A stretch of 62,220 bases of DNA. Source: Firmicutes bacterium M10-2 (lineage in GTDB: Bacteria; Bacillota_I; Bacilli_A; Erysipelotrichales; Erysipelotrichaceae). The notes below the pieces were generated by a model. The model was not told the origin of the DNA. It saw only the letters and a program-made list of their open reading frames with translations, and ran no database searches. Shown here piece by piece: positions 24,144 to 51,560 of this stretch (its first letter is position 1; each line of letters begins with the position of its first letter). The stretch spans positions 1-62,220 of the forward strand of contig KE159702.1 of assembly GCA_000403415.2 (NCBI GenBank). The letters are read 5' to 3'. The position numbers and the translations under genes are program-made.

Positions 24144-24161
24144 GAAGCCCGGAAGGGCTTT
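24144..24161 (+). terminator. Left copy of the nitroreductase terminator hairpin (target duplication)
   Basis: AAGCCC, loop GGAA, GGGCTT, flanked by G and T. This 18-bp segment is repeated exactly at 24353-24370. In this copy the U-run is cut short after three T by the inserted element. Confidence 0.85.
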
Positions 24162-24352
24162 CAGGCTGTTGACAAAGTCGATTTTTCAAATCGGCTTTGT
24201 CACAGCTTTTTATTTTTCTCCCACAAATGAATAAAAAAAGAGCAATTTGAGGTATTTAAGTACCTAATATTACTCTTTTTTTAGACCTTTTTACCCACTT
24301 TTATTTTATTGAAATTTAATTTTTTCAAAATAGGTAGTTTGTCAACACTCTG
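24162..24352 (+). mobile_element. 191-bp terminator-targeting miniature element, copy 1
   Basis: A non-coding 191-bp element, identical by eye to the copies at 36263 and 51343. Ends are CAGGCTGTTGACAAA and TTTGTCAACACTCTG, imperfect inverted repeats (13 of 15). Inside are a hairpin with 14-nt arms (24171-24184 with 24188-24201, one G-U wobble) and a compound hairpin, AAAAAAAGAG (24233-24242) with CTCTTTTTTT (24273-24282), enclosing AGGTA/TACCT. The latter has U-runs on both strands and should terminate transcription both ways. The element lies between exact 18-bp copies of the nitroreductase terminator. No transposase is encoded; a related full-length transposon elsewhere must supply one. Confidence 0.9.
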
Positions 24353-24375
24353 GAAGCCCGGAAGGGCTTTTTTTT
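24353..24375 (+). terminator. Right copy of the nitroreductase terminator, with intact U-run
   Basis: Exact repeat of 24144-24161 followed by the original eight-T run. This copy should be fully functional. Confidence 0.85.
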
Positions 24376-36238: not shown

Positions 36239-36262
36239 CGGAAGGAAAGAAATTTCCTTCCT
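36239..36262 (+). terminator. Left copy of the duplicated terminator hairpin at element copy 2
   Basis: GGAAGGAAA, loop GAAA, TTTCCTTCC, flanked by C and T. This 24-bp segment recurs exactly at 36454-36477. Confidence 0.85.
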
Positions 36263-36453
36263 CAGGCTGTTGACAAAGTCGATTTTTCAAATCGGCTTTG
36301 TCACAGCTTTTTATTTTTCTCCCACAAATGAATAAAAAAAGAGCAATTTGAGGTATTTAAGTACCTAATATTACTCTTTTTTTAGACCTTTTTACCCACT
36401 TTTATTTTATTGAAATTTAATTTTTTCAAAATAGGTAGTTTGTCAACACTCTG
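36263..36453 (+). mobile_element. 191-bp terminator-targeting miniature element, copy 2
   Basis: Same sequence, length and orientation as copy 1 (24162-24352), with ends CAGGCTGTTGACAAA and TTTGTCAACACTCTG. It is flanked by exact 24-bp copies of a 9-bp-stem terminator hairpin. The longer duplication than at copy 1 (18 bp) follows the longer hairpin. Confidence 0.9.
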
Positions 36454-36484
36454 CGGAAGGAAAGAAATTTCCTTCCTTTTTTAT
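36454..36484 (+). terminator. Right copy of the duplicated terminator, with U-run
   Basis: Exact repeat of 36239-36262 followed by the original run of T, so termination of the SdpI-like operon is preserved. Confidence 0.85.
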
Positions 36485-49916: not shown

Positions 49917-51326
49917 TTGATTCAAATTGAAGGGACATTGGAAACATTTCATCAAGGGTTTGGTTTTATCCGGACGGAAGAGGGGGATGTTTTTACAGAT
50001 AGCGCTTTTATCGTAGCGTATCATTTAAAAAATCATGATTATATCGTGGGTGAGGCAGAAATGGATCCGGAAGGCCGTTCGAAATTCATCCTCAAACAAA
50101 TTACCAGCGTCAATCGCATCCATGTGGAACAAATCGATATTGCCAAAGCGCAAAAAGAACTGCAAGAAAAGAAAAACCGCGAACGGGAACATGCACATGG
50201 AATCTTAGAAGTTATGGATAAAGGTTTCGGCTTTCTGCGTCAGGAAAACTATTTATCCGGAGAGGATGATGTATATGTTTCCGAATCCAAGATCAAGGCG
50301 CTGAAATTGCGAACAGGAGATGCGATCGAAGGTGTCGCTTCTCCAAAACACGGTCAGAATGCACGGGCCTTGGAAAGTGTTTCCAAGGTAAATAATCATA
50401 CAGTCAAAGAATGTTTGAGCCGCAAACGTTTTGACCAGTTGACACCGATCTTTCCGAATGAAAAAATCAAGCTCGAAACACTCAAAAACAACTTTGCCGG
50501 CCGTATCGTCGATTTGTTTGCACCGGTAGGCTGCGGACAGCGTGGAATGATTGTTGCGCCTCCGAAAGCCGGAAAAACGACTTTGCTGGAGATGTTCGCA
50601 CAATCGATCTTAAAAAACCATAAGAATATTTATTTGATCGTTTTGCTTATTGACGAAAGACCGGAAGAAGTCACAGCATTTAAAGAGATGGTGCTTGAGG
50701 CGGCCGGAGAAAATAAAGACCATGCAGAAGTTATTTATTCGACTTTTGACGAACAGCCTTCTCACCACAAAAGAGTGGCCGAAATGGCTTTGGCCAGAGC
50801 GAAATCTCTTGTAGAGTTCGGTGAAGATGTAGTTATCTTGCTTGATTCGATCACTCGTCTTTCCAGAGCGTACAACTTAATCGTTCCTTCTACGGGAAAA
50901 GTTCTGTCCGGTGGTCTGGATCCAAATGCGCTCTACGGTCCGAAACGATTATTCGGTGCGGCACGAAATTTACGTGAAGGCGGTTCTTTGACTGTAATCG
51001 CCAGCGCATTGGTCGATACAGGCAGCCGTATGGATGAAATGATCTTTGAAGAATTTAAAGGAACAGGCAATATGGAATTATATCTGGATCGTACATTATC
51101 GGAACGTCGTATTTATCCGGCAATCAATATCCAGCGTTCCTCTACACGTCATGATGAGCTTCTTTTAAGCAAAGATGCGTATACTGTCGAAGAAATGATC
51201 CGTCGCGAATGGCTGACCGGGAATGTCGTTGACGATACGATAACCGTTTTAAAAGGATTGAATTCGACGCGTTCGAATAGCGTGCTCTGCAAAGCTCTTT
51301 TGGAATCCAAAAAAACAAAAAGTTAG
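49917..51326 (+). CDS. rho: Transcription termination factor Rho with two N-terminal cold-shock-like domains
   Basis: Rho is the hexameric RNA helicase that ends transcription at unstructured RNA. The 469-residue protein has the ATPase core with Walker [12 protein letters not shown] (about 214-224), [26 protein letters not shown] and the secondary RNA site in [17 protein letters not shown]. The N-terminus is odd: the usual helical Rho_N domain is absent and residues 4-48 ([20 protein letters not shown]) repeat the canonical cold-shock domain at 93-142 ([17 protein letters not shown]). The start is TTG at 49917, 7 nt after AAAGGAGGG. Confidence 0.95.
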
Positions 51327-51342
51327 AAATTTTTCTAACTTT
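51320..51342 (+). terminator. Left copy of the duplicated rho terminator hairpin
   Basis: AAGTTAGAA, loop ATTT, TTCTAACTT, plus one T. This 23-bp segment recurs exactly at 51534-51556. The A-run just left of it gives a U-run for leftward transcripts, so this copy can serve the convergent kinase-like gene. Confidence 0.85.
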
Positions 51343-51533
51343 CAGGCTGTTGACAAAGTCGATTTTTCAAATCGGCTTTGTCACAGCTTTTTATTTTTCT
51401 CCCACAAATGAATAAAAAAAGAGCAATTTGAGGTATTTAAGTACCTAATATTACTCTTTTTTTAGACCTTTTTACCCACTTTTATTTTATTGAAATTTAA
51501 TTTTTTCAAAATAGGTAGTTTGTCAACACTCTG
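51343..51533 (+). mobile_element. 191-bp terminator-targeting miniature element, copy 3
   Basis: Same sequence, length and orientation as the copies at 24162 and 36263. It lies between exact 23-bp copies of the rho terminator hairpin, in the gap between the convergent rho and cytidylate-kinase-like genes. Confidence 0.9.
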
Positions 51534-51560
51534 AAGTTAGAAATTTTTCTAACTTTTTTC
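51534..51560 (+). terminator. Right copy of the rho terminator, with U-run
   Basis: Exact repeat of 51320-51342 followed by the original run of T. It overlaps the last codons of the convergent kinase-like gene. Confidence 0.85.

Follow-up and report, generated by a model that had tools for sequence, protein, structure and literature searches.

What determines the length of the duplicated DNA on either side of a small non-coding element is the question raised by contig KE159702.1 of Firmicutes bacterium M10-2 (assembly GCA_000403415.2, positions 1 to 62,220, hereafter the window), which is contig C22 of a draft genome of 22 contigs and 2,407,520 bases. An earlier note, made from the letters of the window, described three seemingly identical copies of a 191-bp element with 15-bp imperfect inverted ends, each between two copies of a terminator hairpin, and suggested that the folded hairpin is the target. 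The three copies are indeed letter-identical over 191 bp (Table 1), their inverted ends have two mismatches between the arms, and the direct repeats around them, of 18, 24 and 23 bp, are each a complete hairpin. The answer in which we place high confidence is that the element is a miniature inverted-repeat transposable element (MITE) that is moved in trans by a DDE transposase of the IS1182 family with a DNA stem-loop as its target, and that a resident insertion sequence (IS) of 1646 bp is the likely source of the enzyme. The duplication is centred on the structure of the target, extends one nucleotide beyond it on each side, and recurs in relatives, including some whose empty sites hold a single hairpin.

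A search of the whole genome by the left-end pattern of the element found 59 copies, far above the three in the window; 57 show the main sequence, and the other two differ from it by one base. The census of flanks excludes copies broken by N gaps and comprises 58 copies with both flanks readable, of which 56 share one 191-bp sequence to the letter, the other two being a variant of 189 bp. With ten boundary pairs of the resident IS or an IS derivative, these make 68 boundary pairs, among them two IS pairs that could not be judged, namely L061 (N in the flank) and L063 (rearranged). Direct repeats of 18 to 32 bp, each of them a stem-loop, are present in 60 of the 68 pairs: a hairpin repeat of at least 18 bp flanks 52 of the 58 MITE copies, and a hairpin repeat is found in 8 of the 10 pairs of the IS and its deletion derivatives. 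The best dyad lies at the exact centre of the repeat in 53 of these 60 and at most 1 bp away in the remaining seven. Watson-Crick pairing about the centre is 0.85-0.92 at the seven positions just inside the outermost repeat base, compared with 0.35-0.57 at that base and beyond it. Because pairing steps up one base inside the ends, the repeat is as a rule the stem-loop with one nucleotide added at either end, so that the single flanking base noted in the window is the general pattern, on both sides. In a control with the register displaced by 1-4 bp, a mean of 1.8-2.3 of the seven outer pairs forms, compared with 5.92 at the true centre. The loops of the duplicated hairpins measure 3-9 nt, and the target sequences are unrelated from site to site, structure alone being common to them. 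As the whole hairpin is duplicated beside the element, what the transposase recognises in the target appears to be shape instead of sequence.

Most targets resemble intrinsic terminators with a T-tract or A-tract, which raises the possibility that terminators are targeted through the transcription machinery (a paused RNA polymerase, an R-loop or the T-tract itself) and that duplication of the hairpin is a by-product of the position of the stall. The tracts beside the 60 hairpin repeats make this improbable: a downstream T-tract only is found at 18, an upstream A-tract only at 16, both at 17 and neither at 9. Transcription is directional, yet with 18 T-only and 16 A-only sites the orientation of the element relative to the T-tract is unbiased; the centre of the repeat falls within 1 bp of the dyad, and the repeat covers the stem plus one nucleotide; and IS1272, of the same family, has been reported in stem-loops of coding regions as well. 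The same counts overturn the suggestion that the element keeps one orientation relative to the hairpin and its T-tract: the fixed orientation does not extend beyond the window, where it can be attributed to the small sample.

Sites with and without an insertion can be compared in several relatives. In plasmids of Enterococcus raffinosus, TGGTATATCCATCGGATATGC is present on both sides of the element in the filled NZ_CP104765 and once in NZ_CP072889, the flanks otherwise matching. In E. faecium, AATAGAGCTTTTCAGCTCTATT is found twice in the filled NZ_LR135245 and once in the empty AP026606 and NZ_LR135332. In Providencia, AGGCAACCTCTTGGTTGCCT occurs twice at the filled site, compared to one diverged hairpin in NZ_MT813046. 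At the place syntenic with window copy 1, the only window site that could be aligned with the sister species G142, that genome has a single hairpin followed by the same TTTTTACTCCG. Two tandem hairpins at empty sites would have told against duplication upon insertion; G142 and the plasmids of the relatives have one. A search of Escherichia coli for strain-level empty sites gave one partial relative only, and genome G141 gave no match.

Duplication of hairpins extends well beyond the MITE of this genome. Diverged MITEs of 190-191 bp with about 70% identity exist in other genera of the family, and hairpin repeats flank three of them (L082, L083, L086). In the same three, by comparison with window positions 24162-24352, the left-end hairpin, the central hairpin and the CCCAC motifs are kept, a constraint that extends beyond the ends. 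IS1182 relatives with 39-59% identity in Erysipelotrichaceae and other Bacillota have hairpin repeats of 19-27 bp, and such repeats also flank enterococcal elements (43-46% identity) and a Providencia element (36%), so that the duplication is seen in two phyla, in relatives from Bacillota and Gammaproteobacteria. Some relatives (L090, L091, ISEfa7) have no matching repeat and a different hairpin on each side, which is the expected outcome of recombination between copies. For the hairpin-duplicating group, a tree of 31 sequences requires a single change; support is weak (63/63) and limited by long branches. The proposal of a folded hairpin as the target, with its size dictating the length of the duplication, is sustained by the 60 of 68 boundary pairs, by diverse relatives and by the comparison of empty sites. 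Three arrangements of related elements were recorded in passing. In a Salmonella enterica plasmid (CP053580, L141), an IS1182 element is centred in a long inverted duplication, with the target hairpin once in each orientation. In E. faecium NZ_LR135255 (L177), the hairpin repeat of one ISEfa7 copy abuts the end sequence of another, as though the first had gone in next to an earlier insertion. In Pseudomonas plasmids (L144, L149), two different IS1182 elements are inserted at an identical GGCC position, with a class 1 integron and a recombinase gene nearby.

The parent of the element, which the earlier note left unnamed while calling for a full-length transposon with shared ends, has a strong candidate in the resident IS. 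This IS is 1646 bp long, within the range of about 1.3-2 kb that is usual for the IS1182 family, and consists of a single open reading frame (ORF) for a 475-aa DDE transposase between the inverted ends CAGACTGTTGACAAA, which are one mismatch from each 15-bp end of the MITE. A lone ORF between terminal inverted repeats is the arrangement expected of IS1182; the transposase scores 400 bits against NF033551 (NCBIfam IS1182), for which the cut-off is 270, and contains the domains DDE_Tnp_1, DDE_Tnp_1_6 and DUF772. A PDB search found no sequence relative. Targeting of palindromes or stem-loops, a trait of some IS1182 members, is also seen here, with IS1272 as precedent. Five full-length copies with an intact transposase gene are present in the genome, and duplication of the hairpin is common to the IS, its deletion derivatives and the MITE. 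The 191-bp element accordingly has the features of a MITE, being short, non-coding and multicopy, with IS-like ends and target duplications like those of the IS. One internal-deletion derivative of the IS1182 element, of 557 bp (L066:522-1078, C12:455321-455877), also has the hairpin duplicated at its site. L068, with CAGAGT at both ends, was considered as a possible larger parent and rejected: the most likely cause of this arrangement is a gap of the assembly within the palindrome of the element itself.

The strong fold of the element with its flanking hairpins (z -8.9 relative to shuffles; z -7.3 for the element alone, folded as DNA), its internal terminator-like hairpin and its conserved length in other genera (190-191 bp, with about 70% identity) might instead point to an immobile sequence that recombination has spread, either a terminator cassette or a conserved 3' regulatory RNA. 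That explanation is very improbable, given that the 56 identical copies lie at unrelated sites and almost every one has a target duplication of its own, that full-length ISs show the same duplications and that relatives have empty sites. An Rfam search gave nothing near the gathering score.

A mechanism for mobilisation of the MITE by an IS1182 transposase can be proposed. The target would be a stem-loop, usually an intrinsic terminator, that is probably extruded from duplex DNA as a cruciform. DDE transposases join the 3' ends of an element to target 5' phosphates; here, each 3' end of the element would attack one of the two target strands, at a point one nucleotide beyond the hairpin's 5' foot. 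For the whole hairpin to be duplicated, both strands have to be joined at their 5' feet. The gap from each joined end would then span the entire hairpin, and filling of these gaps by host repair would place the element between two hairpin copies. Attack on a four-way junction fits the dyad-centred symmetry of the repeats. Alternatively, the hairpin may be recognised on single-stranded DNA, such as the template of the lagging strand, in the manner of IS200/IS605. Extrusion of a short-stem hairpin from duplex DNA may be costly, many of the targets are short terminator hairpins with stems of about 6-12 pairs, and the same stem-loop shape on a single strand would have the same footprint; nevertheless, recognition of a single strand seems unlikely, though less so than the other rival explanations, given that the enzyme is of the DDE and not the HUH type and acts on terminal inverted repeats, and that a single-stranded target does not directly provide for the two strand transfers, on opposite strands, that duplication needs. 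Extrusion as a cruciform remains the preferred form of the target. Transcription termination at the site of insertion is probably preserved, since the hairpin and its original T-tract are kept on one side and the hairpin at the left end of the element is terminator-like. The central near-palindrome could form a terminator-like hairpin on either strand. In the sister species, the homologue of the gene upstream of the left copy of hairpin 3 is a putative transcription terminator Rho.

Table 1. Coordinates of the three MITE copies in the window, their duplicated target hairpins and structures within copy 1.
Feature	Position	Strand	Remarks
Target hairpin duplicate, left, copy 1	24144..24161	+	18 bp, GAAGCCCGGAAGGGCTTT
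MITE copy 1	24162..24352	+	191 bp, non-coding, ends CAGGCTGTTGACAAA / TTTGTCAACACTCTG; no ORF of at least 80 aa inside
Terminator-like hairpin within element, left end	24170..24202	+	15 pairs, then CAGCTTTTTA; stem includes part of terminal repeat
Central near-palindrome with A-tract and T-tract	24232..24283	.	self reverse-complement match 85% (query 71-122), folds
Target hairpin duplicate, right, copy 1	24353..24370	+	original T-tract retained, 24371 onward
Hairpin 2 duplicate, left	36239..36262	+	24 bp
MITE copy 2	36263..36453	+	191 bp, identical
Hairpin 2 duplicate, right	36454..36477	+	
Hairpin 3 duplicate, left	51320..51342	+	23 bp
MITE copy 3	51343..51533	+	191 bp, identical
Hairpin 3 duplicate, right	51534..51556	+	

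Several observations weigh against mobilisation of the MITE to stem-loops by the resident IS. The interior of the MITE is unrelated to that IS, the match being confined to the ends; thus, derivation of the 191-bp interior by internal deletion of the 1646-bp IS is unsupported (the 557-bp derivative described above is a separate, real deletion product), trans-mobilisation by the resident IS is inferred only, and another IS1182 transposase may have moved the MITE. Copies without a duplicated hairpin had been sought as a refutation, and 6 of the 58 MITEs lack the full repeat that the other 52 possess. Three of the six have a partial repeat within a terminator hairpin: L015 and L033 duplicate its 3' arm plus one base, and L035 duplicates its 5' arm, loop and two bases; in all three, the hairpin may have been attacked asymmetrically. 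The repeat of L012 measures 9 bp and forms no convincing hairpin. L009 and L071 have unlike flanks on their two sides and are apparently a single pair on C16 that was rearranged or wrongly scaffolded. The other syntenic places examined in the sister species are single terminators of diverged sequence, without an element and not alignable. The empty sites compared are those of relatives and of the sister species, and the evidence for movement comes from comparison of sequences. A further concern is that the duplicated hairpins could be assembly artefacts of a repeat-rich draft genome, several copies having N gaps inside and two copies on C16 having exchanged flanks. The chance of this is negligible: 60 different duplications agree site by site, and the pattern is also present in complete Enterococcus and Providencia plasmid records that have element-free counterparts. 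The identity of the copies may in part be a consensus effect, as the draft assembly has gaps in repeats. The exchanged flanks on C16 involve L073 (C16:231788-233916) and L071 (C16:249876-250064), one of which adjoins a 10-N scaffold gap, and reflect either rearrangement between copies or a scaffolding error.

Targeting of structure by the IS1182 family is already known. IS1272 and TnSha1 of staphylococci, which share the family and have stem-loop targets of unrelated sequence, insert at stem-loops of 21-38 bp (GN genomes) or 21-85 bp (database sets) that are often terminators (PMC5678879, PMC4923244). They differ in replacing the stem-loop without a target duplication: Furi et al. (2016) described its blunt deletion (PMC4923244), and Wan et al. 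(2017) described deletion of the stem-loop by IS1272 at the 3' feet, with joining at the 5' feet, leading to duplication, as the hypothetical pathway b (PMC5678879). Deletion of the hairpin has thus been published and duplication only predicted. Replacement of the IS1272 type does not account for the present elements, in which a hairpin stands on both sides in 60 of 68 pairs and the empty sites of relatives hold one.

Close similarity is also seen to ISEfa7 and related enterococcal IS1182 elements, which have transposases 43-46% identical, CAGACTGTAGAC ends and hairpin duplications; unlike the MITE, they are full-length ISs with no MITE burst seen, and several of their plasmid copies have unlike hairpins on their two sides. 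The literature searched contained no report that ISEfa7-type elements duplicate hairpins. The ISCfr1/ISPmo1 branch carries the same NCBI family name and has a palindromic target, but only a very short overlap (GGCC or CGGCCG) is found at its insertions, with no duplication of a stem-loop. PATEs of Haloquadratum, which are derived from IS605, are likewise transposase-free repeats tied to palindromes, but the palindromes are part of the PATE itself, and they have no terminal repeats, no target duplications and an IS605-type enzyme (PMC3119063); such an origin is ruled out by the DDE enzyme, the terminal inverted repeats and the target duplications. IS elements that target REP palindromes also use palindromic intergenic sites, but they are specific for the sequence of a repeat family (PMC1525189), a mode of targeting that is ruled out here because the targets share no sequence.

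No account of hairpin duplication that follows the one-nucleotide rule, reaches this copy number, involves a MITE and spans two phyla came up in the literature searched. ISfinder may list long or variable direct repeats for IS1182, which limits the claim of novelty. On balance, though with less confidence than in the stem-loop target itself, we favour a model in which a widespread IS1182 branch reads DNA secondary structure alone and duplicates stem-loops of any length by joining one nucleotide outside the 5' feet of hairpins at a four-way junction, while IS1272 attacks the opposite feet and causes deletion; the choice of strand pair at the junction, not a fixed stagger, would set the outcome. 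In the usual description of DDE transposases, the length of the target duplication follows from a fixed stagger; here, the target's own fold sets it with base precision, as seen at 60 boundary pairs of one genome and among relatives from two phyla. Taken together, deletion by IS1272 and duplication here make the engagement of a DDE transposase with a cruciform directly testable. Insertion beside terminators with a hairpin left on both sides suggests a strategy that is benign to the host, and an integrase addressed by structure would be a new kind of tool.
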